Shown here one piece after another: positions 9,199 to 24,526 of a stretch of DNA of 35,616 nt. The notes beneath the pieces are model-generated. The model saw nothing but the letters and a program-made list of their open reading frames with translations, was not told where the DNA came from and made no database searches. The DNA lies in contig JAJQFG010000133.1 of the NCBI GenBank assembly GCA_021201315.1, positions 1 through 35,616 of the forward strand, read 5' to 3'. The stretch's first letter is position 1. Each line of letters starts with the position of its first letter. Source of the stretch: Erysipelotrichaceae bacterium (GTDB taxonomy: Bacteria > Bacillota_I > Bacilli_A > Erysipelotrichales > Coprobacillaceae). The translations under genes and the position numbers were made by a program.

Positions 9199-9675
9199 AT
9201 GGCATTTAAAGATAAATATGAAGATTATAAACAAAGAAAAGAAGCTCAAAGATACTTTAGAAGTAATAATGATCAATTCTTAGATTCCTCTCAATGGATG
9301 AAAGTTATCCTTTATGGTATTGTATCTTGTATTGGTATTGGTGTTGTTTTAGGTTTGGTGATCTATTATGCGCCAATCACAAGTGTTTGGTTTTATATTA
9401 TTACTGGTTATTTAGTAGCAATAGCGATTACCAAAGCAGCTAATGTACAATGTCATCAAGCTGGCTATGCTGCAGTTGCTTTTACTTTCTTATCTTATCT
9501 TATTTCTATTATGACGATGTATTCTTTAAGCTATATTAGCTTAGGCGTTAATGTTGGTATATTAGGCTTTTTAAGCTTATTCTTTCCTAGTCTTAAATAT
9601 ATGTTTACAGGCAGTGTTATTAGTATTATCTTAATGCTTGTGGGGCTATATGAAGCCTACATGGTAGCTAAGTGA
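9199..9675 (+). CDS. Small integral membrane protein of unknown function
   Basis: 158 residues. A charged cytoplasmic-type N terminus (KDKYEDYKQRKEAQRYFRS) is followed by about four hydrophobic segments (roughly 34-56, 62-79, 90-110 and 118-155). I do not recognise a family. TTAGGAGG precedes the ATG and a strong terminator overlaps the stop. It is the last gene of an apparent three-gene unit with the DprA-like and rhomboid genes; a link to rhomboid function is only a possibility. Confidence 0.75.
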   Translation: MAFKDKYEDYKQRKEAQRYFRSNNDQFLDSSQWMKVILYGIVSCIGIGVVLGLVIYYAPITSVWFYIITGYLVAIAITKAANVQCHQAGYAAVAFTFLSYLISIMTMYSLSYISLGVNVGILGFLSLFFPSLKYMFTGSVISIILMLVGLYEAYMVAK

Positions 9676-9701
9676 AATGTGTTATGCATTTCACTTTTTT
9701 T
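9670..9701 (+). terminator. Intrinsic terminator after the membrane protein gene
   Basis: 10-bp perfect stem AAGTGAAATG / CATTTCACTT, loop TGTTATG, then T-run to 9701. Confidence 0.92.
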
Positions 9702-9716
9702 ATACCTAAAATAAAT

Positions 9717-9746
9717 AACTGTCAAAAAGTATACTTTTTGACAGTT
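9717..9746. repeat. Perfect 30-bp palindrome, copy 1
   Basis: The half-site AACTGTCAAAAAGTA is followed immediately by its exact reverse complement, with no loop. The central 26 bp recur exactly at 9868-9893. Each arm ends in an outward-facing TTGACA, so each copy carries a -35-like hexamer on both strands. It could be an operator, a recombination site or a dispersed palindromic repeat. Nothing else in the window matches it. Confidence 0.85.
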
Positions 9747-9867
9747 GTGGACTACGTTGTTAATTGTATCATAATTCATACTAAAAATCAACAACAAATT
9801 AAGAATATCATGCTTATAAACACCCTTATCATTGGATTTTACATCAATTTTTCTTATTAATTTTATG
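9747..9867. other. 121-bp non-coding spacer between the two palindromes
   Basis: AT-rich sequence flanked by the two palindrome copies. Short open frames here on both strands have no ribosome binding site and run through the palindromes, so I do not call a gene. Being bounded by inverted/direct copies of a palindrome, the segment could in principle invert or be deleted; no recombinase gene is adjacent. Confidence 0.4.
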
Positions 9868-9893
9868 CTGTCAAAAAGTATACTTTTTGACAG
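9868..9893. repeat. Perfect 26-bp palindrome, copy 2
   Basis: Half-site CTGTCAAAAAGTA plus its exact reverse complement, identical to the centre of the copy at 9717-9746. The centres are 149 bp apart. This copy lies 292 bp upstream of the first gene of the polysaccharide operon. Confidence 0.85.
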
Positions 9894-9982: not shown

Positions 9983-10019
9983 CTTAGAACATTATACCAT
10001 TATTTTTTATGAAGATTCA

Positions 10020-10162
10020 TTTTATTTTGCTTATTTAATTCGCAGAATAAAAAAAGAAGTAAATCATGATATATGTGATGGTGTCCACACATAGAGAGTG
10101 TTTGAACATAGGTTTGAAGTCTAATTAACTATTAATTGGATAGGAGAACTATGTTCTTTTTT
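10020..10162 (+). promoter_or_regulatory. Structured leader with attenuator-like hairpin before the polysaccharide operon
   Basis: Nested inverted repeats: TTTTATTTTGC (10020-10030) pairs with GCAGAATAAAA (10042-10052). GAACATAG (10104-10111) pairs with CTATGTTC (10149-10156) and is followed by six T. Inside that loop AATTAA-CTA-TTAATT (10123-10137) forms a second hairpin. The outer stem plus T-run, 23 nt ahead of the GGGAGG ribosome binding site, looks like a transcription attenuator. Long operons for surface glycans are often controlled by processive antitermination; no NusG-like gene is in this window. Confidence 0.4.
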
Positions 10163-10184: not shown

Positions 10185-10898
10185 ATGGACATTGATGAAT
10201 TGATATCTTCTAATGTTAATAAAGTTAATGAAGATAGATTATTCACAAATGAAGAGTATGAGGATTATTTTAGTAGAGAGTTAGAGAAACATAAAAATGA
10301 TATTAGATGTGAAAGCAAAGTTGGATATGAAGTGTTTAGGAGATTTATAGATATTGTATTTTCTTTATGTGCGATTATACCTGTGACAATACTTATCATT
10401 ATTTTATCATTGATTATTAGGTTGGATTCACCAGGTAATCCTATTTTTACTCAAGTAAGAGTTGGTAAAAATGGAAAGTTGATGAAGATACATAAATTAA
10501 GATCTATGAATATGAATGCTGAAGCTAATGGACAAAAATGGGCTGAAGATGATGATCCAAGGATAACAAAGATAGGAAGAATACTTAGAAAATATAGGTT
10601 AGATGAAATACCACAATTCTATGATGTACTTACGGGAAAACTATCTTTGATTGGTCCAAGACCTGAAGTTCCTGTGTTAACAAAACAATTTAATGAGGAG
10701 ACACCTGGTTTTGTAACAAGGTTACTTGTTAGACCAGGATTATCTGGTTATGCACAAGTTAATGGTGGATATGATATAGATTATAAAGAAAAATGGGAAA
10801 AAGATAACTATTATATAGAACATAGGAGTATTAAACTTTATATTCATATTTTCTTTAGGACATTAGGTGTTGTAAGTACAGGAGAAGGGGCAAAATGA
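10185..10898 (+). CDS. Undecaprenyl-phosphate phosphoglycosyl transferase (bacterial sugar transferase)
   Basis: 237-residue initiating enzyme of the PF02397 family, transferring a sugar-1-phosphate from a UDP-sugar to undecaprenyl phosphate at the inner membrane face. A hydrophilic N terminus (1-50) leads to a hydrophobic re-entrant helix (about 54-82) and the catalytic domain with GKNGKLMKIHKLRSM, DDDPRITKIGRILRKYRLDEIPQF and SLIGPRPE. The C-terminal GLSGYAQVNG is typical. It lacks the multi-helix N-terminal half of WbaP, so it is the small monotopic type. First gene of the operon, with GGGAGGGAG ribosome binding site; it overlaps licD by 4 bp. Sugar specificity is not readable. Confidence 0.93.
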   Translation: MDIDELISSNVNKVNEDRLFTNEEYEDYFSRELEKHKNDIRCESKVGYEVFRRFIDIVFSLCAIIPVTILIIILSLIIRLDSPGNPIFTQVRVGKNGKLMKIHKLRSMNMNAEANGQKWAEDDDPRITKIGRILRKYRLDEIPQFYDVLTGKLSLIGPRPEVPVLTKQFNEETPGFVTRLLVRPGLSGYAQVNGGYDIDYKEKWEKDNYYIEHRSIKLYIHIFFRTLGVVSTGEGAK

Positions 10899-11821
10899 AG
10901 TATTTTTTGAGGGAGGTTTACGCATTGGAAAAGGAAAATGTTAGAAATTTAAGCCTTGAAGAAACTAAAATCATGCAAAATAAAATGTTAGAAATTTTAT
11001 TATATTTTAAAGATTTTTGTGATAAATATGGATTAATGTTTTATCTTGCTGGTGGGTGTGCCATAGGTGCTGTTCGACATAAAGGATTTATTCCATGGGA
11101 TGATGATATAGATTGTTTTATGCCGAGAGATGATTATGAAAAATTAAAAATTCTTTGGGAACAATATGGAGATAAAGAAAAATACACATATTGCAGGACT
11201 GATAGAGATTATAATTATCATCATGCCGCTGCATCTTTAAGAGATAATAATACTACATTTATAAATATGCATAGTAAAGATGAAGATATTTGCCACGGAA
11301 TGGCTCTGGAGTTTATACCTATTGATGGTTGCCCAAAAAAATTACATTCAAGGGTTTGGCAATTGATAAATGCATCTGCTTTTGTTTTATTTAATAATCA
11401 AAGATTACCTGATAACAAAGGCAAATTTTTTAGATTTATGTCTAAGATATTGTATAGTATTATAAGATCTAAAAAAATTAGAGATGATATTTGGATTTAT
11501 GCTGAAAAGCAACTGTCTAAATACAAGTGGGAAGATTGTGATTATGTCACTGAGTTAATAGGCAGTCTAAAAGGAATGATGTATAAGCATCCTAAATCAT
11601 GGTTTGATCATGTAGTTTATAAAGAGTTTGAAGGTTATGATATGCCTTTGATGGCTGGGTATGATCAATATTTACACTTGATTTGGGGTGATTATATGCA
11701 ACTGCCACCAGAAGAACAACGTGTTGCTAAACACAATACTGTTTATTTAAATACGGAAGTATCATATTTAAAGTATAAGGGAATTTATTATTGTGTAAAT
11801 AAGGATGATAAAGCAAAATGA
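10895..11821 (+). CDS. LicD-family phosphotransferase
   Basis: 308-residue LicD protein (PF04991), a nucleotidyltransferase-fold enzyme that attaches phosphocholine or other CDP-activated phospho-alcohols to glycans. The signature GGCAIGAVRHKGFIPWDDDID spans 53-73, including the catalytic Asp cluster. The ATG overlaps the previous stop (ATGA). An alternative TTG at 10925 has a stronger ribosome binding site (GGGAGG, 8 bp upstream) and would remove 10 residues; the true start is uncertain. The CDP-unit donor may come from the TarI/IspD-like cytidylyltransferase encoded 9 kb downstream in the same locus. No choline uptake or kinase genes are here, so a phospho-polyol is as likely a substrate as choline. 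Confidence 0.9.
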   Translation: MKYFLREVYALEKENVRNLSLEETKIMQNKMLEILLYFKDFCDKYGLMFYLAGGCAIGAVRHKGFIPWDDDIDCFMPRDDYEKLKILWEQYGDKEKYTYCRTDRDYNYHHAAASLRDNNTTFINMHSKDEDICHGMALEFIPIDGCPKKLHSRVWQLINASAFVLFNNQRLPDNKGKFFRFMSKILYSIIRSKKIRDDIWIYAEKQLSKYKWEDCDYVTELIGSLKGMMYKHPKSWFDHVVYKEFEGYDMPLMAGYDQYLHLIWGDYMQLPPEEQRVAKHNTVYLNTEVSYLKYKGIYYCVNKDDKAK

Positions 11822-12870
11822 AAAAATTTAATCTATTAGAAAATAAATATCATGTGGGATGGAATTTATTAAGTGAAAATCGTGATTTTCTTATGGGATT
11901 AGCAACACTTTGGATAGTATGTTTACATGGAACACAATTATATAAGGATATAAATATTCCTGCTCTCACTTTGATTATGAAATTAGGTAATATGGGTGTT
12001 GAAATTTTTCTGATTTTATCGGCTATTGGTTTGTATTATTCACTTAATTATAATTATAATTTAAAAATTTTCTATTTAAAAAGAATAAAAAGAGTTTTAA
12101 TTCCATATCTTATAATTTCCTTATGGTATTGGTTATGGGTTTTATGTTCCACAAAAATTTCAATTTTGGATTTTTTTAAAAATTGGTTTTTAATATCATT
12201 TGTTACTGATGGTGTAACTACATCATGGTATGTTTTATTAATTTTATGCTTATATTTAGTATATCCGATTATATATTTATTACAAAAATATAATTCAAAT
12301 TATATTTTATTTATTGTATTATTTGATTTAATTTTTAATATATTTATTTTTATTAAATATCCCGTTTTTTGGGATAGTATAGAAATAGCATTAACTAGAA
12401 TTCCAACATTTCTGATAGGGTGTTATATTGCTCCTTTAGTTAAAGATAAAAAGAAAATCAATCAATTTAACTTTATTATAGAAATTGTTTTAGCATTTTT
12501 TGGGACAATATGTTGTGTTGCATTTTTGAAAATAGGACTTAATAATATCGCTTCAATGATATATAGATATACAAGTTGTTTTATTGCCTTTTTTATATGT
12601 TTTGTATCAATATTTCTAGTTTCATTTTCTAAAAATATTAAATTGTTTTTTGAAAATATTGGAAAAACATCATTTGAGGTATATTTGATTCATGTTTTTG
12701 TTAGAAATATTTTATCATTCTATAAAATTGGTTATAAAGGAAACATATTAGATAAAACTATTATATATTTTATTATGGTTTCTATCGTAATTATTACTAT
12801 TCTTATCTTTAAAAGATATATGTTAATTGGAAAGGTATACAAAAAGGGTGATATGATTGGAAAAAATTGA
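11818..12870 (+). CDS. Acyltransferase 3 family membrane O-acyltransferase
   Basis: 350 residues with about ten hydrophobic segments, matching the Acyl_transf_3 family (PF01757; OafA-like). The first helix carries the family His (WIVCLHGTQLY). GNMGVEIFLILSAIGLYYS and the Arg-rich loop YLKRIKRVLIPYLI are characteristic. Members O-acetylate or O-succinylate surface glycans at the membrane. Its ATG overlaps the licD stop by 4 bp. Its 3' end overlaps the TTG start of the next gene by 14 bp, so it is firmly inside the operon. Confidence 0.88.
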   Translation: MKKFNLLENKYHVGWNLLSENRDFLMGLATLWIVCLHGTQLYKDINIPALTLIMKLGNMGVEIFLILSAIGLYYSLNYNYNLKIFYLKRIKRVLIPYLIISLWYWLWVLCSTKISILDFFKNWFLISFVTDGVTTSWYVLLILCLYLVYPIIYLLQKYNSNYILFIVLFDLIFNIFIFIKYPVFWDSIEIALTRIPTFLIGCYIAPLVKDKKKINQFNFIIEIVLAFFGTICCVAFLKIGLNNIASMIYRYTSCFIAFFICFVSIFLVSFSKNIKLFFENIGKTSFEVYLIHVFVRNILSFYKIGYKGNILDKTIIYFIMVSIVIITILIFKRYMLIGKVYKKGDMIGKN

Positions 12871-13837
12871 TTTTGTAATTCCATGGGTTGATGGAAATGA
12901 TAAATTATGGAGAGAGGAAAAAAGAAAGTATATTCCTAATGACGAGGGTGATGATAGAGAAATTAGATTTCGTGATAATGGTTTACTTAGATATTGGTTT
13001 CGAGGCATAGAAAAATTTGCTCCATGGGTTAACAAGGTATATTTTGTTACTTGTGGGCATAAACCTGAATGGTTAAATATAAATCATCCTAAATTAGAGA
13101 TTATATGTCATACTGATTATATTCCTAATCAGTATTTGCCAACGTTTAGTTCGCATGTCATCGAATTGAATTTTCATAGAATAAAAGATCTGAGTGAAAA
13201 ATTTGTATATTTTAATGATGATTTTTATTTAATAAAAAATGTAAAACCAAATGATTTTTTTATTAATGATTTGCCTTGCGACTGTTTAGTAGAAAGTGCT
13301 ATAACACCGAGAATTGGAGAATTTTCCTCGATATTGTGCGAAACAGTAGGAGTTATTAATAAAAATTTTAGTAAAAAGGATATTAGGAGAAATTTTTTAA
13401 ATATATATAATCCAAAATATAAAGAACTTTTAATTCGTACATTTTCAACTTTACCATATTACCATATTATGGGGTTTTATAATCCTCATATTTGTCAATC
13501 ATTTAGAAAAAGCACATTTAATGAAGTTTGGAGTAAAGAATATGATATATTGCATAAAACATGTATGAATCGTTTTAGAGGTAAAAATGATGTTAGTCAA
13601 TATCTGTTTAGATATTGGCAATTATGCAAAGGTGAATTTGTTCCACAATATCCTATTGGTAAAATGTATAATATTTCTTCTGACATTAGAGTGATTTGTA
13701 ATACAATAGAAAAACAAAAGTATAAGGTAATTGCTATTAATGATACAGACGACGTTAATAATATTGATGATCGTGAGAATCAAATAAAATCAGCATTTAT
13801 GAAAATATTACCAGATAAATCTTCATATGAATTATAA
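12857..13837 (+). CDS. Stealth-type sugar-phosphate transferase (capsular polysaccharide phosphotransferase)
   Basis: 326 residues with the Stealth conserved regions in order: CR1 IDFVIPWVDGND at the N terminus; CR2 with RFRDNGLLRYWFRGIEKFAP, LPTFSSHVIELNFHRI and FVYFNDDFYL; a CR3-like His-rich segment (YYHIMGFYNPHICQSF); and a short CR4-like IAINDTDD near the C terminus. Stealth enzymes transfer hexose-1-phosphate from a nucleotide sugar, making phosphodiester bonds in capsules such as those of meningococcus. The start is a TTG with AGGGTGA upstream, inside the end of the preceding gene. With LicD and the phosphoglycosyl transferase it makes the third phosphotransferase in the locus. Confidence 0.92.
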   Translation: MEKIDFVIPWVDGNDKLWREEKRKYIPNDEGDDREIRFRDNGLLRYWFRGIEKFAPWVNKVYFVTCGHKPEWLNINHPKLEIICHTDYIPNQYLPTFSSHVIELNFHRIKDLSEKFVYFNDDFYLIKNVKPNDFFINDLPCDCLVESAITPRIGEFSSILCETVGVINKNFSKKDIRRNFLNIYNPKYKELLIRTFSTLPYYHIMGFYNPHICQSFRKSTFNEVWSKEYDILHKTCMNRFRGKNDVSQYLFRYWQLCKGEFVPQYPIGKMYNISSDIRVICNTIEKQKYKVIAINDTDDVNNIDDRENQIKSAFMKILPDKSSYEL

Positions 13838-13850
13838 AGGTGAATATATA

Positions 13851-14435
13851 ATGAGTAAAAAATTAGTTGAATTTTCTCTTATTTTGTTTTTGTTTATAAT
13901 CGAATTTTTTTATGTTATAGCTCCTATTATGGGAAATTATAATATTATATTAATATTGACATTTCTTTGCTTGTTAATACTATTTTTATATTATTTTCTT
14001 AATAAGATTAGTATTTTAAATATGAATAACTTTGAAATTCTTTTATTCTTTTTCTTAGCTTATGTTATATTAAGAGTATTATGTTCTCAAAGTTATATTG
14101 ATTTATTTTTTTATCTTTTTGGCTTCACATTTCTTATCTTTTTTGGAAGTTGTAAAGAACATATAAATCTTAATTATTTATTAAAAGTATTATTTTGGTT
14201 TGGCTTGTTTTTTTCTATAGGTGTAATTTTTCAAATGTTATTTACTGAGCAGTTTATGGAGTATTATTATCCATTATTTGCTGATGCCTTTAAAACATCT
14301 ATAAGAAGGCAAGTTGTTTTTCATCAAATGTATCCTGGTTGGACAAGCCAAACATTTGCAACAAGTATAAATATCATTATGGGATTATGTGCTTCATTTT
14401 ATTTGTGGTATAGAGAAAAAAATTATCATATTTGA
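13851..14435 (+). CDS. Wzy-like polysaccharide polymerase, N-terminal part (frameshifted)
   Basis: 194 residues, nearly all hydrophobic, with about six transmembrane helices, started at the ATG with AAGGTGA 7 bp upstream. It ends abruptly after YLWYREKNYHI at 14435. A run of seven A at 14416-14422 lies just before the stop. Reading with one more A would give YREKKLSYLIAIVIM and run directly into the next frame, which continues a helix and the LTGKRG loop typical of O-antigen ligase/polymerase proteins (PF04932 type). Wzy links repeat units on the outer membrane face of the cytoplasmic membrane. Broken gene, phase-variable tract or base-call error; see the findings. Confidence 0.75.
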   Translation: MSKKLVEFSLILFLFIIEFFYVIAPIMGNYNIILILTFLCLLILFLYYFLNKISILNMNNFEILLFFFLAYVILRVLCSQSYIDLFFYLFGFTFLIFFGSCKEHINLNYLLKVLFWFGLFFSIGVIFQMLFTEQFMEYYYPLFADAFKTSIRRQVVFHQMYPGWTSQTFATSINIIMGLCASFYLWYREKNYHI

Positions 14436-15148
14436 TTGCTATCGTAATTATGATAGTGGCATTGTTACTTACTGGAAAAAGAGGACCTCTGGTCTTCTTT
14501 TTGATTTCATTTGTTTTTGTAGAATTGTGGAGTTCAGATAATTTAAAATTAATTTTAAAAAAGATGGGAAAATATATTTTAATATTGTTAATAAGTGTAT
14601 TTATTATTTATTTGTATATAAATTTAAATGACAATGGTATAGAATCTAGAAATACAATTATTCGTTTTTTAGAAATGTTCAATAATTTGGGAGAAAATGA
14701 TGTTTCAAATGGAAGATTTGAACTTTGGAATTTAGCACTAAAAACTTTTATTAATAATCCAATTTTTGGAAGTGGTTGGAATGAATTTCATAATATTGCT
14801 TTTGCTTATTTAGGTGAGGATATTCAAACACATAATATTTATTTGCAATTATTATCAGAATTAGGTTTTACTGGCTTTTTATTATATATGGTTCCAATTA
14901 TTTATTGTTTTATTGATACTAAAAAACAATTTAGGATTGAGAAAAATACAAAACATTATGAAGAAAGTGTTTTTATGAAGATTTCGCTATTTTTACAAAT
15001 TTTTTTGTTTTTATACGGGATGACAGGTAACACAATTTATGATTATAATGTGTTATTAATATACTTTTTTGCTTTTACGATTTATTGTAACATTAAATTT
15101 AAAGTAAAAAATAGTAGTAGTTTAAAAAATCATAAAAATAATGTTTAA
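14432..15148 (+). CDS. Wzy-like polysaccharide polymerase, C-terminal part (frameshifted)
   Basis: Continuation of the polymerase in the -1 frame. It begins at a TTG without any ribosome binding site, in the middle of a transmembrane helix (IAIVIMIVALLLTGKRGPLVFF), so it is unlikely to be a gene start. It contains the family's periplasmic-loop region (SNGRFELWNLALKTFINNPIFGSGWNEF, then DIQTHNIYLQLLSELGFTG), which matches the O-antigen ligase/polymerase signature with the conserved H-N near a Leu-rich stretch. The combined reading would be about 432 residues with 10-12 helices, the usual size of Wzy. A 137-bp gap with no gene follows. Confidence 0.75.
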   Translation: MIAIVIMIVALLLTGKRGPLVFFLISFVFVELWSSDNLKLILKKMGKYILILLISVFIIYLYINLNDNGIESRNTIIRFLEMFNNLGENDVSNGRFELWNLALKTFINNPIFGSGWNEFHNIAFAYLGEDIQTHNIYLQLLSELGFTGFLLYMVPIIYCFIDTKKQFRIEKNTKHYEESVFMKISLFLQIFLFLYGMTGNTIYDYNVLLIYFFAFTIYCNIKFKVKNSSSLKNHKNNV

Positions 15149-15285
15149 TTTTATAAATTTTAATTATTTAAAATACTGAATTATTTTTATAAAAATTTTA
15201 AAGAAAGGATTTATATTGTAATAATTATAGGGAATGCATTATATTTTTACTTTATAATATATTACTTTAAAATAAGGTGTCTTAA

Positions 15286-16449
15286 ATGAAAGGTATTGTA
15301 ATGTATATGCATGGAGGAAGTGAAAACCATGGATGTGAAGCGATTGTACGTTCGACAGTTAAATTGGTAGAATCTGACTCCATACTATATTCAAGGAATC
15401 CAGAAATGGATACTACATATAATTTAAATAATATATGTGAAATAAAGAATCGAGGAGAAGTAATTAAACAATTTGATATTAAATGGTTTATACGTCAAAT
15501 AAAAAAGAGACTTTTTGGAGACAGATTAGCTTTTATACGACATAATTATTGTAATATTTTAAATGAAGCAGATCCTAATATGTTGTACTTGTCTATAGGT
15601 GGTGATAATTATTGTGGAAAATTAATTCCAGCATTAAAATATACCAATAAAAATTTAAATGAATCAGGTGTTAAAACTATTTTGTGGGGCTGTAGTATAG
15701 ATCCTGAATATATAAAATCAGATACAGGAAATCATGATTTAAAACTTTATACAAAAATTTTTGCACGTGAAAAAACTACATATCAAGCACTAATTGATAA
15801 TGGATTGGGATCAAAAGCAAGATATTATCCTGATCCTGCTTTTATATTAGAACAAGAAAAATGGAAGTTACCAGATATATTTTATAAATCCAAAGTTATT
15901 GGAATTAATATAAGTCCATATGTACAAAAAAATGGTAAAAAAGATATTATTTTTGAAAACTATGTAACGCTAATTGAGTATATACTCAATGCAACAGATT
16001 ATTCAATTGCTTTAATTCCTCATGTAATATGGGATGAAAGTGATGATAGAATTCCTTTAAATAGATTGTATGAAAAATATCATGAGGATAGAGTTGTATA
16101 TATAAAGGATCAAAATTGTTGTAGATTAAAATATTGCATTGCAAATTGTGAAATGCTAGTTACCGCAAGAACGCATGCGAGTATAGCTGGATATTCTACA
16201 TATGTTCCAACATTAGTAGTTGGATATTCTATGAAGTCCAAAGCAATCGCAAATGATATTTTTGGATGTACTGAACATTATGTTGTTTCTGCTTCATTAG
16301 TAAGAAATAATAATGTGCTTTTAGATGAATTTAAATGGCAATATGAACATAAGGAAATAATAAGAAATTATTTGAAAAATTTTATGCCTGATTATATAAA
16401 GAAAGTATATTCTGCTGGTATTGAAATTAAAGAGATGCTAGATGAATAA
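15286..16449 (+). CDS. Polysaccharide pyruvyl transferase family protein
   Basis: 387 residues, PF04230 family. N-terminal MYMHGGSENHGCEAIVRS is the Rossmann-type GxxNxGdea-like start. LYLSIGGDNYCG and GCSIDPEYI follow. The C-terminal TARTHASIAGYSTYVPTLVVGYSMKSKAIANDIFG matches the conserved R-x-H region of CsaB/WcaK-type enzymes. They transfer a pyruvyl group from PEP as a ketal onto a sugar, adding negative charge to the surface polymer. AAGGTG precedes the ATG. In other Firmicutes these genes often neighbour FrhB-like genes and a Wzx flippase, as here. Confidence 0.9.
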   Translation: MKGIVMYMHGGSENHGCEAIVRSTVKLVESDSILYSRNPEMDTTYNLNNICEIKNRGEVIKQFDIKWFIRQIKKRLFGDRLAFIRHNYCNILNEADPNMLYLSIGGDNYCGKLIPALKYTNKNLNESGVKTILWGCSIDPEYIKSDTGNHDLKLYTKIFAREKTTYQALIDNGLGSKARYYPDPAFILEQEKWKLPDIFYKSKVIGINISPYVQKNGKKDIIFENYVTLIEYILNATDYSIALIPHVIWDESDDRIPLNRLYEKYHEDRVVYIKDQNCCRLKYCIANCEMLVTARTHASIAGYSTYVPTLVVGYSMKSKAIANDIFGCTEHYVVSASLVRNNNVLLDEFKWQYEHKEIIRNYLKNFMPDYIKKVYSAGIEIKEMLDE

Positions 16450-16498
16450 TATGTTTTTAATAAAAATTAATATTAAATTAATAACTATTAAGGAGTGA

Positions 16499-18034
16499 AT
16501 GCCAAGTATGCATTTTAATCAAAAAAAGGTAGGAGTCATATTGTCATATGTTGCAGAAGCTATAAAAATTCTTTCTAGTTTGATATATACACCTATTATG
16601 CTTAGATTACTAGGTCAAAGTGAATATGGTCTTTATCAGTTGGTATATTCGGTTGTTTCATATTTGAGTTTACTTAGTTTAGGATTTGGTAGTTCTTATG
16701 TGAGATTTTATTCAAAATATACGATAGATAATGATGATGATGGTGTTGCAAGATTGAACGGAATGTTTTTGATTATTTTTACTTTAATGTCAATCATTTG
16801 CATTCTATGTGGTGCAGTTATGTTAGGTAATATAACAGCAATTTTTGGGAACGGATTAACGAATTCAGAATATGCTACTGCAAGGATATTGATGTTTTTC
16901 ATGATTTTTAATCTTGCAATAACATTTCCTAATAGTTTGTTCAATTGTGTTGTTACAGCACATGAAGAATTCTTTTTTCAAAAAATTCTCATTGTATTAC
17001 AAAATTTATTAAATCCATTCCTTACATTACCTTTATTAATTATGGGATTTGGATCAATTGGTATGGTATCCGTAACCACATTTTTAACTATTGCTGTTTT
17101 TTTATCAAATATGTTTTATTGTTTTAAAAAATTAAATATAAGATTTATATTTAATGATTTTCAATTTTCATTATTAAAGGAAATGTGGATTTTTACTTTT
17201 TTTATATTTTTAAATCAAATCATTGATCAAGTAAACTGGAGTGTAGATAAATTTTTATTAGGTAGATTTAGTGGTACAGTTGCAGTTGCAATTTATGGAG
17301 TTGGTTCACAAATTAATACTATGTATATACAATTATCAAGCACAATTTCTAATGTTTTTGTTCCAAAAGTTAATATGATTGTTGCTAAATCTGATGATAA
17401 TGGAGAGTTATCTAAATTGTTTACAAAAGTTGGTCGCATACAGTTTATACTTTTAGCTTTGGTATTAACTGGTTTCATATTTTTTGGAAAGTCATTTATT
17501 TCTTTTTGGGCAGGTGAAGGTTATGAAGAATCATTTTATGTAGCTCTACTATTAATCGGTCCAGTGACTATACCTTTGATTCAAAATTTAGGTATTGAAA
17601 TTCAAAGGGCTAAAAACATGCATAAAGCTAGATCTATTGTATATTTCTTGATTGCTATTGCAAACGTGTTTATTAGTATACCATTAATACAATTATTTGG
17701 TGCTTCAGGTGCAGCAATGGGAACTGCGATAGCTTTAATTGCTGGCAATGTTTTATTTATGAATTGGTATTATTACAAAAAAATAGGATTAGATATGATT
17801 GATTTCTGGAGAAATATAGGCGAGTTTGTTCCAGCATTAGTCTTGCCTTGTATATTAGGAATAGTTATGAATTTATTTGTATCGATGAATTCGTTGATTG
17901 TATTAGGACTATGTATTATATTTTACAGTTTGGTTTATTGCCTATCTATGTGGTTTTTTGGTATGAACAATTATGAAAAATCCATGATTGAAGAGCCAAT
18001 TAATAAGTTTTTATATAAGGTGGGAATAAAATGA
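16499..18034 (+). CDS. Wzx-type polysaccharide flippase (MOP superfamily)
   Basis: 511 residues with 12-14 predicted helices. The N-terminal ILSYVAEAIKILSSLIYTPIMLRLLGQSEYGLYQL is classic for the Polysacc_synt / MOP exporter family, which flips undecaprenyl-linked repeat units across the membrane. AGGAG sits 3 bp before ATG 16499 and 12 bp before ATG 16508, so the exact start is ambiguous by three residues. The stop overlaps the start of the next gene (ATGA). Pairing with the polymerase above indicates a Wzx/Wzy-dependent pathway. Confidence 0.93.
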   Translation: MPSMHFNQKKVGVILSYVAEAIKILSSLIYTPIMLRLLGQSEYGLYQLVYSVVSYLSLLSLGFGSSYVRFYSKYTIDNDDDGVARLNGMFLIIFTLMSIICILCGAVMLGNITAIFGNGLTNSEYATARILMFFMIFNLAITFPNSLFNCVVTAHEEFFFQKILIVLQNLLNPFLTLPLLIMGFGSIGMVSVTTFLTIAVFLSNMFYCFKKLNIRFIFNDFQFSLLKEMWIFTFFIFLNQIIDQVNWSVDKFLLGRFSGTVAVAIYGVGSQINTMYIQLSSTISNVFVPKVNMIVAKSDDNGELSKLFTKVGRIQFILLALVLTGFIFFGKSFISFWAGEGYEESFYVALLLIGPVTIPLIQNLGIEIQRAKNMHKARSIVYFLIAIANVFISIPLIQLFGASGAAMGTAIALIAGNVLFMNWYYYKKIGLDMIDFWRNIGEFVPALVLPCILGIVMNLFVSMNSLIVLGLCIIFYSLVYCLSMWFFGMNNYEKSMIEEPINKFLYKVGIK

Positions 18035-19017
18035 ATTTAAATACTTTTGCATGTTACAACAACGATGAAGAAATTCGTTTAATAAGCTCATCAGGTGGTA
18101 TCTATTATTTATTAGCTTCTAAAATTCTAGATTATGGAGGATCAGTATATTCAACTTGTTATAGTAATGATTTAAAAGCAGAATTTAAAAAAATTGAAAA
18201 TATTAAAGATTTAAAACTAAGCTGTGGTTCAAAATATATGCCATCAAGCTTAGGGGATACTTTTAGCAGTATAAAAAAAGAACTTAACAGTAATCGAATA
18301 GTTTTATTTGTTGGATTGCCTTGTCAATGTCAAGGATTAAAGTCTTATATAGGAAATTCAAATATATTAAATGAGTTTAAAGACAATCTAATTCTAATAG
18401 ATTTAGTATGTCATGGGGTTCCAAGTAGTAAAGCTTGGGAGTCATATAGCAAATCATTAAAGAATAGAGGTTTCAATATATCAAAAGTTAACATGAGAAA
18501 TAAATCCAGTGGGTGGAGAAGATATTGTTTTCACTTAGTATCGATAAATGGTAAAAATGTATATGAATCTCATGGAAAAAATTTATACATGAAAGGTTTT
18601 ATATCTGATATTTATCTTCGACCATCATGCAATGATTGTAATTTTAAAGGTGTTAACAGAAATGTTGATATTACATTAGGAGACTACTGGGGAATTCAGA
18701 ATATACATCCTGAAATGGATGATGATAAAGGGACATCTCTAGTACTAGTGCATACAGAAAAAGGATTAGAATTATATAGAAGCATTTCAGATAAAATAAG
18801 TTATATATCTACACCAATTGAAGAAGCAATAAAGCATAATACTGCCATTGTAGAATCTGCAAAATTAAATAATAATAGAGCAGATTTTTTTGTTCGTTTA
18901 TCAAAAGGAGAGGACTTTATGAATATAGTGAACGATTTGACAAAAATACCATTATATAGAAAAATATTGAATAAAATACTTTGCTCGAAGAATTTCTTCG
19001 GGGGGGTTAAACCATAA
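18031..19017 (+). CDS. FrhB-like iron-sulfur flavoprotein of the polysaccharide locus, copy 1
   Basis: 328-residue member of the coenzyme F420 hydrogenase/dehydrogenase beta-subunit family (PF04422/PF04432) found in many glycan loci. Visible marks: EIRLISSSGGIYYLLA at the N terminus, LFVGLPCQCQGLKSY, DLVCHGVPSSKAWESY, and YLRPSCNDCNFKGVNRNVDITLGDYWGI, which hold the cluster-binding Cys. It lacks the N-terminal ferredoxin domain often fused to relatives. Substrate unknown; reductive modification of a glycan precursor is only inferred. A G7 run (18998-19004) lies six codons from the stop, unusual in this AT-rich DNA. Tandem paralogue of the next gene. Confidence 0.85.
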   Translation: MNLNTFACYNNDEEIRLISSSGGIYYLLASKILDYGGSVYSTCYSNDLKAEFKKIENIKDLKLSCGSKYMPSSLGDTFSSIKKELNSNRIVLFVGLPCQCQGLKSYIGNSNILNEFKDNLILIDLVCHGVPSSKAWESYSKSLKNRGFNISKVNMRNKSSGWRRYCFHLVSINGKNVYESHGKNLYMKGFISDIYLRPSCNDCNFKGVNRNVDITLGDYWGIQNIHPEMDDDKGTSLVLVHTEKGLELYRSISDKISYISTPIEEAIKHNTAIVESAKLNNNRADFFVRLSKGEDFMNIVNDLTKIPLYRKILNKILCSKNFFGGVKP

Positions 19018-19071
19018 ATATAACAGCAATGCTTATATTAATATAAATTATAAGCTTGGGGGTGCTGTGTA

Positions 19072-19827
19072 ATGAAAACATTAGCATATGCAGCATTAAA
19101 TTTAAATGATGATATAAGAAACAAAAGTTCATCAGGTGGTATATTTTATGAGATAGCAAAATATGTTGTTTTAAATGATGGAGTTGTATATGGTGCAAGA
19201 TATGATGATCATTGGTTAGTCGTACATGATCATACAGAAAATATTAAGGATATATCAAGTTTTCTTGGAAGTAAATATGTTCAAAGTAATATGAATAATC
19301 AATATGAGAAAATAAAAATTGACCTCATGTCTGGTCGACTTGTTTTGTTTTCAGGGACACCTTGTCAAATTCGAGGATTGCAATGTTTTCTTGGCAAAGA
19401 ATATGAAAACCTAATAACAGTTGATTTCATCTGCCATGGAGTACCTAGTCCTAAAGTATGGGAAAAATATATTAATGAATTATCTAATGGACATAATATA
19501 ACAAAGATTAATTTTAGAGACAAATCTAAAGGTTGGCAACATTTTTCCTTGAGAATTGATTTTAGTGATGGCAATTATTATAGTAAAACTCAGCAGGAAG
19601 ATTTGTATATGAGAGGATTTCTTCAAGATATATATCTTCGACCATCATGCTATCAATGCAGATTTAAGGGAATTGAAAGAAAATCTGATTTAACTTTGGC
19701 AGATTATTGGGGCATAAATAATATATATCCAGAATTATATGACGACAAAGGAACATCCTTAATATTTATTCATTCAAAAAAAGGTAAAAATATTTTTTTG
19801 AAGATAAGTAATTCTTTAAAAAAATAG
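19072..19827 (+). CDS. FrhB-like iron-sulfur flavoprotein, copy 2, main part (frameshifted near the 3' end)
   Basis: 251 residues, paralogous to the preceding gene: KSSSGGIFYEIAKYV, LFSGTPCQIRGLQCF, DFICHGVPSPKVWEKY and YLRPSCYQCRFKGIERKSDLTLADYWGI align directly. GGGGGTG is placed 9-10 bp upstream of the ATG. It stops at TTA AAA AAA TAG within a run of seven A (19818-19824). Copy 1 continues about 60 residues further at this point. The missing tail is present downstream in the -1 frame (next entry), so the gene is split by a single-base homopolymer change. The tract is also a perfect A AAA AAA slippery heptamer in the zero frame. Confidence 0.85.
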   Translation: MKTLAYAALNLNDDIRNKSSSGGIFYEIAKYVVLNDGVVYGARYDDHWLVVHDHTENIKDISSFLGSKYVQSNMNNQYEKIKIDLMSGRLVLFSGTPCQIRGLQCFLGKEYENLITVDFICHGVPSPKVWEKYINELSNGHNITKINFRDKSKGWQHFSLRIDFSDGNYYSKTQQEDLYMRGFLQDIYLRPSCYQCRFKGIERKSDLTLADYWGINNIYPELYDDKGTSLIFIHSKKGKNIFLKISNSLKK

Positions 19828-19829
19828 AA

Positions 19830-20033
19830 TTGGATGTAGATGATATGGTTGAAAATAAAAAAATTCAACCTAATGCAATATCTTCAGTGAACTTAACACC
19901 AAAGAGAGAAAATTTTTATAAGAACAATGTAGATAATTTTGACAATTTAAAAAATCTTACACATATATCATTTATAGATCGTATTTTTAGAAAAATAAAA
20001 TACATATTAAAACATATTACAAGAAAAAAATAG
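19830..20033 (+). pseudogene. C-terminal tail of FrhB-like copy 2, separated by the frameshift
   Basis: About 67 residues in the -1 frame. With one extra A the join reads SNSLKKIELDVDDMVENKK and continues NAISSVNLTPKRENFYKNN, matching the family tail (copy 1: AIVESAKLNNNRADFFVRL). It begins at a TTG with no ribosome binding site. A basic C terminus (FRKIKYILKHITRKK) parallels the basic tail of copy 1. I therefore treat it as part of the upstream gene, not as an independent protein. Confidence 0.75.
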
Positions 20034-20055
20034 CATATCTGTTTAATGAAGGGAG

Positions 20056-20496
20056 ATGATTTATATATTTAATAATATAAGAAAAGAAAAAAATTCTTTT
20101 TCAACTTCAAATTTCACAGCAATATACCAATATGCAGATGGAAGCTATCTTCCCAATTCATCACAGCCTGATATAGAAAAAAATTATAAAATCAATGCAC
20201 AGGAGTATACACCACATAAATCCACAAGATATATAAACATTAAATTAGGAAATAATGGAAAAGCAAAAAAAATCAATAATTTTGGAGAGTATATTGAATG
20301 TGAAAAAGATTTACCAGAATTATATTATGTTAGAGAAAATTGTTGTGGATGTACAGCTTGTTATACAATTTGCCCAATAAAAGCAATAAAAATGAGGCCG
20401 GATGAGGAAGGATTTGTTTATCCTGTAATAGATGCAGCCAAGTGTTTACGCTGTTATAAATGTATTAATGTTTGTCCTATAAGAAAATATCTATAA
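20056..20496 (+). CDS. Free-standing 2[4Fe-4S] ferredoxin-domain protein
   Basis: 146 residues. The N-terminal half (1-90) is polar and unrecognised. The C-terminal half carries two bacterial ferredoxin motifs, CCGCTACYTICP and CLRCYKCINVCP (each CxxCxxCxxxCP), with the standard KMRPDEEGFVYPVI spacer seen in ferredoxin-FrhB fusion proteins. It ends right after the second motif (CPIRKYL), exactly where an FrhB domain would begin in a fused protein. It probably donates electrons to the two FrhB-like proteins just upstream. The start is uncertain: GGGAG abuts the ATG with no spacer. Confidence 0.75.
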   Translation: MIYIFNNIRKEKNSFSTSNFTAIYQYADGSYLPNSSQPDIEKNYKINAQEYTPHKSTRYINIKLGNNGKAKKINNFGEYIECEKDLPELYYVRENCCGCTACYTICPIKAIKMRPDEEGFVYPVIDAAKCLRCYKCINVCPIRKYL

Positions 20497-20580
20497 ATGG
20501 TACAACAAATAGGAAAAAATTAATGGGATATGTATGAATATTTTTTAATGTTTTAATAATATTTTTTAAAAATTATTGAT

Positions 20581-20601
20581 GTGTCATAAGACACTTTTTT
20601 T
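20581..20601 (+). terminator. Weak terminator or attenuator before the cytidylyltransferase gene
   Basis: 5-bp stem GTGTC / GACAC with loop ATAA, followed by seven T. It lies in the 127-bp gap after the ferredoxin gene and could separate the upstream long unit from the following three genes. Confidence 0.5.
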
Positions 20602-20623
20602 AATGAAGAGAGAAGGAAAAAGT

Positions 20624-21346
20624 ATGAATATAGCTATTGTATTCGCAGGAGGAACAGGTACAAGAATGGGCGCGGGATTACCTAAACAGTTTTTACAAAT
20701 CAATGGCAAACCTATTCTTATACATACCTTGGAAAATTTTGAGAATTCACCAGAAATTGATAAGATTTATATTGCCTGCAAAGAAGATTATATAGAACAT
20801 ACAAAAAAAGAAATAAAAAAATTTCAAATAACTAAAGTTGTGAATGTTATACCTGGTGGAAATTCTAGTCAGGATTCTATTTATAAGTCTTTAAAAGCTG
20901 CGAGAGAAGAAAATGATGATGACTCAATTGTATTGATTCATGATGGTGTACGACCAATTTTGACACAAGAAGTTATAAAAGATAATATTGAAAGTGTAAA
21001 AAAACATGGCTCTGGAATAACTTGTACAGCTTGTTATGAAACGGTAATAATTACTGATGATGGTAATAAGGTTGATGATGTTCCTTTGCGTGATAAAGCT
21101 TTTACAGCACAAGCACCGCAAAGTTTTTATTTGGGTGATATCCTAGCTGCACACGAACAAGTAAGAAAAACTAATCCAAATTATGATGGTATAGTTGATT
21201 CTTGTACTTTGCTTAGAAGACAAGGCAAAGAAGTTTATATTGTTAATGGCAATAGAGGTAATATTAAAGTTACAACACCTGAAGATTTTTATATTTTAAG
21301 AGCATTATTACAGTATCAAGAAAATGAACAGATTTTAGGATTATAG
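20624..21346 (+). CDS. TarI/IspD-family cytidylyltransferase
   Basis: 240 residues from the ATG preceded by AGAAGGAAAA. It is a CTP:sugar/polyol-phosphate cytidylyltransferase: FAGGTGTRMGAGLPKQF (7-23) is the CTP-binding loop, IHDGVRP (105-111) holds the metal-binding Asp, and TTPEDF lies near the C terminus. HDGVRP (rather than HDAARP) and the glycan context favour a TarI-like role (ribitol-5-phosphate or a related polyol phosphate) over IspD isoprenoid synthesis. The downstream partner is an SDR rather than the TarJ alcohol dehydrogenase, so the activated polyol may not be ribitol. The product would be a CDP-polyol donor for LicD-type transfer. Confidence 0.85.
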   Translation: MNIAIVFAGGTGTRMGAGLPKQFLQINGKPILIHTLENFENSPEIDKIYIACKEDYIEHTKKEIKKFQITKVVNVIPGGNSSQDSIYKSLKAAREENDDDSIVLIHDGVRPILTQEVIKDNIESVKKHGSGITCTACYETVIITDDGNKVDDVPLRDKAFTAQAPQSFYLGDILAAHEQVRKTNPNYDGIVDSCTLLRRQGKEVYIVNGNRGNIKVTTPEDFYILRALLQYQENEQILGL

Positions 21347-21356
21347 GAGTATAATA

Positions 21357-22409
21357 ATGAATAAAATTTTAGAAGAAGATTTACAATTGATTATTAATTC
21401 TGGTGACTATTTCAAAAAATTAAATAATAAAACTATTCTAATAACTGGTTTTAAAGGAATGATAGGCTCATATCTAACAAAAACATGTTTATATTTGAAT
21501 GACATTAAAGGATTTAATATTAATGTAATTGGTTTAACTAAAAGGAATGAAAATATCGATCCTTATATAAGCAATCATCCTAATATGAACATAGTAATTC
21601 AGGATGTTTCAAAACCATTTGAAATTGAAAATCACGTTGATTGGGTGATACATGCAGCATCTCCAGCTTCGCCTAAAATAATGAAAATAGATCCAGTTGG
21701 AACTATTGCTGCAAATGCTTTAGGGACATGGAATGCTTTAGATTTTGCATATAAAAATAATTCTGAAGGATTCTTATTCATTTCATCAAGAGAAATTTAT
21801 GGTCAACCATATGATAATCAGGAACAGTTTTATGAAGATACGTATGGATTGGTTGATCCTTTAAGAGTACGTTCTTGTTATCCTGAAGGAAAAAAATGTG
21901 CTGAAACCATGTGTGTATGTTATAAAGAACAATATGGATTAAATACAAAAATAGCACGTTTAGCTCATACATATGGTCCAGGAATGTCAATTAATGATGG
22001 AAGAGTACAAGCTGATTTCTTGAATAATGTTCTAAATAAAGAAAATATTGTTATGAAAAGTACAGGAGAAGCAATCAGAACTTATACATATATTGCAGAT
22101 GCTGTTAGTGCATTATTTAGAATATTATTGGATTCAAATGATATTGTTTATAATATTGGAGATAGTAAAAATAAAGTTTCTATTAAAGAATTGGCAGAAA
22201 TATTAGTACAAATAAATCCAGAAGATCATTTAAAAGTAGTAATGGATATACCTAAAGATGCTTTAAAAGGTGTTTCACCTTTTACATTAGGTATATTGAA
22301 TAATGAAAAATTATTGAAATTAGGATGGGAACCACAATTTTCTATTTTTGATGGTTTTAAAAGAACTGTTAGATATTTAGAAATTGAAAGAGCTGAAGGA
22401 AGGATATAG
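21357..22409 (+). CDS. NAD-dependent epimerase/dehydratase family (extended SDR) enzyme
   Basis: 350 residues. Rossmann motif ITGFKGMIG (29-37), HAASPAS (99-105), FISSREIYG (141-149) with catalytic Ser, and YPEGK with Tyr175/Lys179 mark an active extended SDR, close in pattern to nucleotide-sugar decarboxylases/epimerases. It starts 10 bp after the cytidylyltransferase stop with AGGAG, and glmM begins 1 bp after its own stop. Pairing with a TarI-like enzyme recalls two-gene modules that make CDP-polyols by reducing or remodelling a CDP-sugar. The exact reaction is not determined. Confidence 0.85.
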   Translation: MNKILEEDLQLIINSGDYFKKLNNKTILITGFKGMIGSYLTKTCLYLNDIKGFNINVIGLTKRNENIDPYISNHPNMNIVIQDVSKPFEIENHVDWVIHAASPASPKIMKIDPVGTIAANALGTWNALDFAYKNNSEGFLFISSREIYGQPYDNQEQFYEDTYGLVDPLRVRSCYPEGKKCAETMCVCYKEQYGLNTKIARLAHTYGPGMSINDGRVQADFLNNVLNKENIVMKSTGEAIRTYTYIADAVSALFRILLDSNDIVYNIGDSKNKVSIKELAEILVQINPEDHLKVVMDIPKDALKGVSPFTLGILNNEKLLKLGWEPQFSIFDGFKRTVRYLEIERAEGRI

Positions 22410-22410
22410 A

Positions 22411-23757
22411 ATGGCAAAATATTTTGGAACAGATGGTTTTAGAGGAGAAGCCAATGTAGATTTAACAGTAGAACATGCTTATAAGGTAGGAAGATATCTT
22501 GGATGGTATTATTCAAGAAATCATAAAGCAAGAATCGTGATTGGTAAGGATACAAGAAGAAGTTCATATATGTTTGAATATTCTTTGGTGGCTGGTTTAA
22601 CAGCCAGTGGTGCTGATGTATTCTTACTTCATGTTACAACAACTCCTTCAGTATCTTATGTGGTAAGAAGTGAAAACTTTGACTGTGGTATTATGATTAG
22701 TGCATCTCATAATCCTTATTACGACAACGGTATTAAGATTATAGATGGTAATGGTTATAAGCTGGATGCCAAGATTGAAAATCTGATTGAAAAATATATT
22801 GATGGCTTGTCAGATTCAATACCTTTTGCGACTAAAGATGATATCGGACGTACAATAGACTATTCTATGGGACGCAATCGTTATATTGGTTATCTTATGA
22901 GTATACCAATGAGAGCATTCAAAAATAAGAGAGTTGGACTAGATTGTGCCAATGGTTCAAGCAGTGCCATAGCTAAAGCTGTTTTTGATGCTTTAGGTGC
23001 TAAAACCTATGTTATTAATAATGATCCAGATGGCATCAATATCAATGAAAACTGTGGCTCAACCCATATTGAAGTATTACAGAACTATGTCAGAGAAAAT
23101 GGCTTGGATTGTGGTTTTGCCTATGATGGGGATGCAGATAGATGCATCGCTGTAGATGAATATGGCAGAGTGGTTAATGGTGATATGATTTTATACATTT
23201 GTGGCAGTGAAATGAAAAGAAAGAATGAACTTGTTCATAATACAATAGTTACAACAGTTATGAGTAATTTTGGATTATATAAATCATTGGACAAAGTTGG
23301 TATCAATTATGAAAAGACAGCAGTCGGAGATAAATATGTCAATGAAAACATGGTGAAGAATGGCCATGTCATTGGTGGAGAACAATCAGGACATATCATA
23401 TTTTCAAAGCATGCAACTACAGGAGATGGAATCTTAACATCATTAAAGATTATGGAAACCATGGTAGAAAACAAGAAAACATTAGCACAATTATGTGATG
23501 GTATCGAAGTCTATCCACAGTTACTAATTAATGTAAGAGTGAAAGATAAAAAAGCAGCTCAAGAAGATGAAGATGTGCAGAAAGCTATCAAAGAAGTAGA
23601 AGAGAAATTAGGCAATGATGGAAGAATATTAGTAAGAGAAAGTGGCACAGAACCAGTAGTAAGAGTCATGGTAGAAGCATTGAGTGATGAAATATGTCAT
23701 GAATATGTTTTAAAAGTTGTCAATACAATTAAAGCGAAAGGTTATGCGGTGGATTAA
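22411..23757 (+). CDS. glmM: Phosphoglucosamine mutase
   Basis: 448 residues starting at MAKYFGTDGFRGEAN, with AAGGAAGG upstream. It converts glucosamine-6-phosphate to glucosamine-1-phosphate for UDP-GlcNAc, feeding peptidoglycan and glycan synthesis. The phosphoserine loop ISASHNP (Ser99), the Mg-binding DGDADR (239-244), the sugar-binding GEQSGHI and the phosphate-binding RESGTEPVVRVM are all present. It follows the SDR gene by 1 bp, so it is probably co-transcribed with the surface-glycan genes, while having a housekeeping role. Confidence 0.95.
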   Translation: MAKYFGTDGFRGEANVDLTVEHAYKVGRYLGWYYSRNHKARIVIGKDTRRSSYMFEYSLVAGLTASGADVFLLHVTTTPSVSYVVRSENFDCGIMISASHNPYYDNGIKIIDGNGYKLDAKIENLIEKYIDGLSDSIPFATKDDIGRTIDYSMGRNRYIGYLMSIPMRAFKNKRVGLDCANGSSSAIAKAVFDALGAKTYVINNDPDGININENCGSTHIEVLQNYVRENGLDCGFAYDGDADRCIAVDEYGRVVNGDMILYICGSEMKRKNELVHNTIVTTVMSNFGLYKSLDKVGINYEKTAVGDKYVNENMVKNGHVIGGEQSGHIIFSKHATTGDGILTSLKIMETMVENKKTLAQLCDGIEVYPQLLINVRVKDKKAAQEDEDVQKAIKEVEEKLGNDGRILVRESGTEPVVRVMVEALSDEICHEYVLKVVNTIKAKGYAVD

Positions 23758-23770
23758 TTCTTAAATTAAT

Positions 23771-24526
23771 ATGAAAGATATTCAAAAGAAGAAATATATT
23801 ATAATAATTGGTATTATATTATTATTAATTATTATAGGTATTTGTGCTTATCGTTTTCATTGTATTAAAGGTGCTGAATTATCATATTTGGGTGCTATAT
23901 TGGGTGGGTCATTAACACTTTTTGGTGTCTGGTGGACTATAGAAGATCAAAGAGAAAGTAGATTAGAGGAATTATCGATTCAATTTAGGCCGATGGTCAT
24001 TTTATATGATGAATATAAACTTTTTAATGATCATATTATAAATGATTTATATTTTAATTATGATAAAACCTATAAAACACAGTTCAAACCCAAATATATG
24101 CAAATCAATGAAAAACATGAAAAAGATAAAAAAATTTGTTTTTCTGTCAAAAATATTGGTAAGGGTGATACGAAAAATTTTAAATTTACTAAAATAGTTT
24201 TAGAAAATAAGGATATATTTTGTAATTATATTTTAGATAATAACGAAATAATTAAATTAAAAGATTTATTATATGATCAAGAATTAGCATTTAATCTTAA
24301 TTTTCCAATGTATCTAAAAATAGATAATAGTTATCAAGGAAAATCTGTTGTAGCTATAATTAATATTTATTTTAATTATGAGGATGAGTTTCAATTGCAT
24401 GCTTATGATTTATGTATTTCATTAGAAGTTTTGATTGAGATTCACAAAGTAGATAATTCACCAAATATTATTGAACCAAAATATACTTTAGTGAAAAAAG
24501 AATATGAAATTGTAAAGGTTAAATAG
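23771..24526 (+). CDS. Membrane-anchored protein of unknown function
   Basis: 251 residues. Two N-terminal hydrophobic segments (about 8-28 and 34-56, GAELSYLGAILGGSLTLFGVWWTI) are followed by a charged linker (EDQRESRLEELS) and a soluble domain of mixed beta/alpha character. This YLGAILGG...GVWWT layout is common in uncharacterised proteins, some from phage or defence loci, but I do not recognise a specific family. No good ribosome binding site precedes the ATG, which lies 13 bp after glmM. A terminator follows. Its lower G+C than glmM hints at separate origin; weak evidence. Confidence 0.6.
   Translation: MKDIQKKKYIIIIGIILLLIIIGICAYRFHCIKGAELSYLGAILGGSLTLFGVWWTIEDQRESRLEELSIQFRPMVILYDEYKLFNDHIINDLYFNYDKTYKTQFKPKYMQINEKHEKDKKICFSVKNIGKGDTKNFKFTKIVLENKDIFCNYILDNNEIIKLKDLLYDQELAFNLNFPMYLKIDNSYQGKSVVAIINIYFNYEDEFQLHAYDLCISLEVLIEIHKVDNSPNIIEPKYTLVKKEYEIVKVK

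Follow-up and report, generated by a model that had tools for sequence, protein, structure and literature searches.

Twin palindromes upstream of polysaccharide genes in an Erysipelotrichaceae genome: probable crossover sites of an invertible promoter

Palindromes and genes at the locus

The window (the whole stretch of 35,616 nucleotides that was analysed; contig C13 of a genome of 2.99 Mb in 136 contigs, G000) was found to contain a run of polysaccharide genes preceded by two exact copies of the palindrome CTGTCAAAAAGTATACTTTTTGACAG (Table 1), with centres at 9731.5 and 9880.5, i.e. 149 bp apart. The first copy was found to extend to a perfect palindrome of 30 bp with two 15-nt arms and a loop of 0 nt, the second to measure 26 bp, and 121 bp (9747-9867) separate the one from the other, as the first-pass annotation had described. 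The outward-facing TTGACA hexamers that it had reported at the ends are present as well (e.g. 9738-9743), but they belong to the palindrome arms. Its view that such palindromes are rarely a product of chance was borne out, as no match at up to three mismatches was found in 100 dinucleotide shuffles of the window. The 12-2-12 anatomy assigned to the site follows from a comparison with the sites beside serine-recombinase genes. Near the sites, Rfam gave three matches (E 0.29-0.48), all far under the gathering scores.

The polysaccharide genes were found to encode sugar transferase, LicD, acyltransferase, Stealth, O-antigen-ligase-domain and pyruvyltransferase proteins together with flippase-type, IspD, epimerase, phosphomannomutase-type and other proteins. 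The leader in front of them was found to be repeated at C95:74745, C92:3281, C7:30447, C39:968, C83:3739 and C73:14706, mostly near a tyrosine-recombinase gene, with the tyrosine homologues of C83 and C73 directly preceding their copies. Such a repeated leader with a terminator-like hairpin might place several operons under antitermination control.

Table 1. Features of the window around the twin palindromes
Feature	Position	Strand	Basis or remark
Terminator-like hairpin with T-run where the upstream gene (9199-9675) ends	9670..9701	+	Direct reading
Putative left crossover site, 26-bp perfect palindrome	9719..9744 (30 bp at 9717-9746)	.	Half-sites CTGTCAAAAAGT, central dinucleotide AT
Putative invertible promoter segment, 123 bp between the 26-mers, OFF in the assembly	9745..9867	.	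Inversion at this locus probable, from other loci
Promoter-like sequence	9763..9791	-	-35 TTGATT 9791-9786, 17-bp spacer, -10 TACAAT 9768-9763; consensus scoring
Putative right (operon-side) crossover site, identical 26-bp palindrome	9868..9893	.	Sequence match
Leader of the polysaccharide operon	10019..10150	+	Resembles six other places in the genome; holds GAACATAG...CTATGTTC followed by a T-run
Polysaccharide genes, probably controlled by the switch	10185..24526	+	Presumably transcribed as a single unit
Tyrosine-recombinase homologue with degenerate active site, last of the + run	24573-25475	+	Possible accessory factor, probably not the flipper

Pairs in the genome and in other taxa

At up to three mismatches the genome was found to contain 12 copies of the palindrome and none of a reversed control pattern. 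All copies form pairs, six in number and 146-178 bp apart (C13 149, C39 178, C93 147, C97 146, C103 158 and C107 147 bp). Five of the pairs precede polysaccharide or surface-protein-type genes: a signal-peptidase-like gene was found downstream of the C39 and of the C93 pair, a SpaA-domain protein downstream of C103 and a Cna_B/FctA-domain protein downstream of C97. The sixth pair (C107) was found to be followed by mobile-element-type genes, namely a tyrosine homologue, a toprim-type gene, a PD-(D/E)XK/AAA protein, a relaxase and then a Big_2-domain protein, with no clear surface operon, which was counted against the proposed switch. This pair (L017) is also the sole ON switch of the genome, in the sense defined below, so that switches of this kind may also sit on a mobile element.

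In other genomes the sites were found across classes of Bacillota and in MAGs labelled Treponema and Coriobacteriales. Sites at three mismatches outside the clear carriers were treated as chance, as they occurred in 6 genomes against 4 control-hit genomes, and in 19 against 18 in another scan. The genes behind the pairs elsewhere were found to encode BspA repeats (a Lapin bin), SLH (Clostridium ASF356) and a bacterial sugar transferase (Selenomonas). In the relative G068 (L204, L211, L212, L297-L299 and L301) variant arms, TCTTATAA and TGTCAAAA, surround the same GTATAC centre in pairs 114-135 bp apart. A single extended palindrome was found at L081:8844, on a putative viral IMG/VR contig that also carries an integrase-like ORF.

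Promoter segment and its direction

At the window, as in an inverton, two matching sites were found around a promoter-like sequence upstream of an operon. This promoter points to the left, away from the polysaccharide operon (a state termed OFF), with 31 bp between the end of its -10 element and the centre of the left site. In its present direction it would serve no sense gene, because the terminator-like hairpin ends the upstream gene; after inversion it would sit at 9821-9849 on the + strand and face the operon.

Both strands of each segment were scored for a -35/-10 pair in 33 pairs from several taxa, eight near-identical copies (two Lapin bins) and the six pairs of the window's genome included. 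The side of the gene was decided manually, on the basis of ORFs and ribosome-binding sites, for all but three of the 33 pairs. The promoter was found to point away from the gene in 24 of the 30 assigned pairs and towards it in 6; where the strands differed by at least 2 the counts were 20 and 6, respectively. In 28 of the 33 pairs the distance from the end of the -10 element to a site centre was 28-34 bp. Five switches of the window's genome are OFF and one is ON.

Orientation at related loci

The loci G001 C298 and G002 C116, from sister species, were found to be one homologous locus with the same gene on the right. Their inner segments align in reverse complement (131/153, score 107) and not directly (score 23), the maximum among 200 shuffles being 21, whereas the gene-side flank and the gene align directly (832/941). 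The G001 locus is OFF and the G002 locus ON. Both orientations were thus found at one locus relative to the gene; the distal 100 bp gave a score of 23.5, which 61 of 500 shuffles also reached, so that conservation on that side is unclear. Two loci with the same inner segment (82/89 direct) and the gene on opposite sides were found in the JAITMQ genome, L046 being OFF and L049 ON. A promoter-like sequence between the sites of each pair, taken with the opposite orientations seen in the two sister species, points most readily to an invertible promoter, i.e. a phase-variation switch.

The arms outside the site core were compared in 24 distinct pairs. In OFF loci the promoter-end inner arm was found to mirror the distal outer arm (mean 4.25 of 7 positions) and the other inner arm to mirror the gene-side outer arm (mean 4.04 of 7), whereas the swapped pairings gave means of 2.83 and 2.46. 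The swapped arms that inversion predicts were found in two of the six ON loci (C107 and G2), with no arm signal in the ON loci of G3, JAITMQ-b, Selenomonas and CANRJU. In 14 of 37 loci the contig was found to end no more than 300 bp from a site, against 1.7 expected, the ends being deduced from the lengths of locus and contig. Such ends are to be expected if assemblers meet both orientations, and repeated segments could contribute to them.

A single orientation was found at the window locus, where we infer inversion from the other loci of the same kind. The promoter direction, the opposite orientations in sister species and the arm pairing lend good support to one proposal of the first-pass annotation, namely that the palindromes are recombinase sites on either side of an invertible segment.

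The candidate enzyme

A palindrome in G045 lies directly before a serine-recombinase ORF, and a search with PF00239 was therefore made. Contig C44 of the window's genome (L225:1492-2061) was found to encode a small Mpi/Hin-like serine recombinase, away from all six pairs, with relatives at 55-69% identity (87-90% within the genus). Relatives of at least 55% identity were found in 14 of the 16 palindrome-bearing genomes (G000, G002, G003, G045, G068 and G294-G302), and in G296 and G301 this enzyme is the sole PF00239 match. The two remaining carriers contain only a large-type PF00239 protein (G001, a 93% complete MAG) and only a relative of 36% identity (G303). In four genomes the gene adjoins the sites, with a pair directly after it in G295 (Selenomonas sp. 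AE3005), G296 and G298 and a single site directly after it in G300 (Treponema MAG).

The catalytic domain was found to match PF00239 alike in the G000 and G002 copies (95.8 bits against a cut-off of 23.3), followed in the G002 copy by a C-terminal HTH_23 signal of 22.3 bits, below the cut-off of 24.6. No such signal was found in the G000 copy, whose last codons are missing: its ORF stops before the recognition helix found in relatives, owing to either a small deletion or an assembly error, and intact copies are present in G002 and G003. If the truncation is real, the six switches of this genome may be frozen.

The association of enzyme and site is not exclusive in the order. A serine relative at E <= 1e-20 was found in 99 of 294 order genomes. 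Clear sites were found in only six of the 294; such a relative is present in five of these six and in 94 of the 288 without clear sites. Moreover, no serine gene was found downstream of any of the six pairs in the window's genome, which was counted against the serine reading. Twin palindromes were absent from 57 of the 60 examined loci of related serine enzymes. Inverted pairs of sites with a GT core were found beside three related serine genes (L265, L273 and L281) and similar repeats beside two more (L276 and L289); some of these other enzymes plausibly use other sites.

Site core, deletion and helical phasing

Passages of PMC11607074 and PMC4817059 describe that serine recombinases join at a 2-bp overlap and that mismatched cores block recombination. 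For GT cores, inverted or direct order of the sites should set inversion or deletion. Being self-complementary, the AT core gives the sites no direction, and either something else must prevent deletion or selection acts against it. A symmetric core should allow deletion, yet no single site was found in the window's genome, which was counted against the model. Excision of the segment, which the first-pass annotation had also considered, could occur in principle, since sites without polarity would permit it; the solitary palindrome at L063:3075, before a signal-peptide-bearing protein and with no promoter segment, looks like an excision product and may be one. At L055:2861 and L080:3479, a homologous locus in two related Gracilibacteraceae MAGs, a single palindrome was found just downstream of a promoter-like sequence, possibly as a locked-ON remnant.

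Site centres lie 114-180 bp apart overall. Nineteen spacings, de-duplicated by hand to one per lineage and value and including a weak, out-of-phase one of 172 bp, were found to lie preferentially at integer multiples of some 10.5-10.7 bp (for a period of 10.5, R was 0.737 with a Rayleigh p of about 3e-5), and none of 20,000 uniform simulation runs reached the observed maximum. With the G068 values of 135 and 124 bp the R value was 0.728; with the weak, out-of-phase 129 (L069) and 171 bp (L074) as well it was 0.631 (p about 1e-4, n=23), and with five GT-core distances 0.673 (n=28). The latter distances were taken by hand as 136, 156, 125 and 136 bp and re-derived as 136 (L265) and 125 (L281), plus 106 bp (L273). 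The out-of-phase weak second sites (172, 171 and 129 bp) were counted against the model. The phased spacings support a short loop with both sites on the same side of the helix.

The proposed switch

The twin palindromes are most probably the crossover sites of a small Mpi/Hin-like serine recombinase that would flip the promoter of the polysaccharide genes. The C44 enzyme would act in trans on the two 12-2-12 sites, pair them over a short loop of whole helical turns, cut both at the central AT and rejoin them after rotation, and the 123-bp segment would thereby be inverted. With the TTGATT-17-TACAAT promoter of the segment facing left, as assembled, 10185-24526 would be OFF; after inversion the promoter would read through the right site and the leader into the polysaccharide genes and turn them ON. 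The action of this enzyme would extend to the remaining five pairs of the genome. Both the catalysis by a C44-type enzyme and the ON/OFF effect on the capsule are steps that we infer.

Tyrosine-recombinase homologues

A tyrosine-recombinase homologue was found downstream, on the same strand, of all six pairs of the genome and of the G001/G002 pair, at about 15 kb in the window, 3.5 kb at C39 and adjacent in four. The promoter could accordingly be flipped by this linked homologue or by an intact relative, as promoter inversion by tyrosine recombinases is known from C. difficile and Bacteroides (passages of PMC5903667 and PMC4747536). Intact copies are present at C39 and just before the C93 pair, and G296, G297, G301 and G303 share an intact tyrosine recombinase (41-89% mutual identity). 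We nevertheless consider such a flipper unlikely. The enzyme shared by the four genomes is only about 28-34% identical to the nearest one in G000. In the palindrome-linked subgroup and its sisters the alignment revealed that both histidines (of HxxR and of GH), the lysine of the hairpin and the position of the catalytic tyrosine have been lost: HxxRH is changed to e.g. SxLRN, the lysine hairpin is deleted, GH is changed to GL, GI, GV or GM, and the tyrosine is shifted or absent. The window homologue retains the two arginines only, and that of C97 is split in two frames; a linked tyrosine recombinase with an intact active site, as in RecV-type switches, was thus found at C39 and not at the window. 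At E 1e-3 the family was not matched in the palindrome loci of other taxa, which span up to 8 kb (L081 12 kb) so that recombinase genes beyond would be missed, except for a distant phage-type match in L081, and 20 of the 26 scanned loci contain a tyrosine-recombinase homologue and no such palindrome. By the active-site alignment and the palindromes at loci lacking the family, the linked tyrosine recombinase was demoted from first-choice enzyme.

The degenerate clade was found in the window's genus and comprises the homologue of the window and those of C93, C103, C107, C83, C56, C95, C41, C73 and G001-G003. These proteins are possible DNA-binding regulators. Three tyrosine-recombinase matches in tandem were found at G000:C133:38993-41421, which we take to resemble a recombinase-in-trio element.

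Looping operators, repeats and a joint reading

GalR/LacI-like regulators are the model for paired looping operators. A regulator might similarly bind both palindromes and loop out a fixed promoter, and the degenerate tyrosine recombinase could be the binder. Spacings near whole helical turns, perfect symmetry and a conserved, catalytically degenerate homologue under purifying selection (dN/dS 0.14 for G1 versus G2, the one pair compared) would suit this further proposal of the first-pass annotation, but it is very unlikely to hold. A fixed promoter should face its gene, and such an arrangement was not found: the promoter faces away in 24 of the 30 scored pairs, and sister species carry the segment in opposite directions ahead of one and the same gene. 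Regulation by looping only was rejected on these two grounds, while a need for looping as such is suggested by the helical phasing. The third proposal, a dispersed family of palindromic repeats, considered here together with a small mobile element that would lack any local function, is hardly credible: near-identical copies do occur in some genomes (eight pairs in two Lapin bins), but the 12 copies of the window's genome are all paired, the reversed pattern gave none, and promoter geometry and phasing are alike in 33 pairs.

Beyond the serine-recombinase switch proposed for the window, a wider joint reading is tentative and, taken as a whole, rather doubtful: minimal serine-invertase switches would be widespread, with directionless AT-core sites, an inversion enforced by geometry, a state marked by the arms and a tyrosine recombinase as holder. 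A loop of whole turns, with 114-180 bp between centres, would favour inversion over deletion; the arms outside the core would pair in OFF and swap in ON, and so mark the state; and, within the genus of the window, the state would be held by an inactive tyrosine recombinase that would be made only in ON and bind the same sites.

Comparison with known systems

The best-known cases of phase variation in capsules and surface proteins come from Bacteroides and C. difficile. Given a site of 24-26 bp and a candidate enzyme, such switches can be found from sequence in members of Bacillota that have received little study, and the palindromic core raises the testable question of how a recombinase inverts, and does not delete, with polarity-free sites. 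The kind of switch is known, since it would work like Mpi and inversions in Firmicutes have been described (passages of PMC5903667 and PMC11892184); the palindromic site itself is apparently undescribed in the main texts searched, the motif letters of the supplements lying outside their scope. In the main text of the hCom2 survey (PMC11892184) promoter-bearing invertons are grouped by repeat motif, groups 125 and 139 being mostly from Firmicutes_A and group 145 common to several phyla; the present switches are like them in bearing a promoter. The letters of those motifs are given in the supplements. The RecV switches of Clostridioides difficile are similar as phase-variable inversions that affect surface genes in a member of Bacillota (passages of PMC5903667), but RecV is a tyrosine recombinase, whereas the tyrosine homologue linked here is catalytically degenerate.

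The proposed switch resembles the Hin/hix system of flagellar phase variation in its small serine recombinase and two-site inversion. The hix site measures 26 bp, Hin/Gin-type sites combine this length with a non-palindromic 2-bp core, and the Hin segment is much longer than that described here. The present sites fit in length and differ in their self-complementary AT core, a GT core being found only beside related enzymes, and their centres are 114-180 bp apart. In passages of PMC4817059, a core change in one hix site is described to block ligation in the inverted orientation, and Hin to use a Fis-bound enhancer. The working of the switch would be most like that of the Mpi master invertase system of the capsular polysaccharide promoters of Bacteroides fragilis, as described in part of PMC4747536. 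The G002 orthologue is no member of the Mpi family NF009949 of NCBIfam, with 50.7 bits against a cut-off of 272 (E 1.7e-13), and in contrast to Mpi the present switches were found to contain sigma-A-type promoters and a shared 26-bp palindromic site with an AT core.
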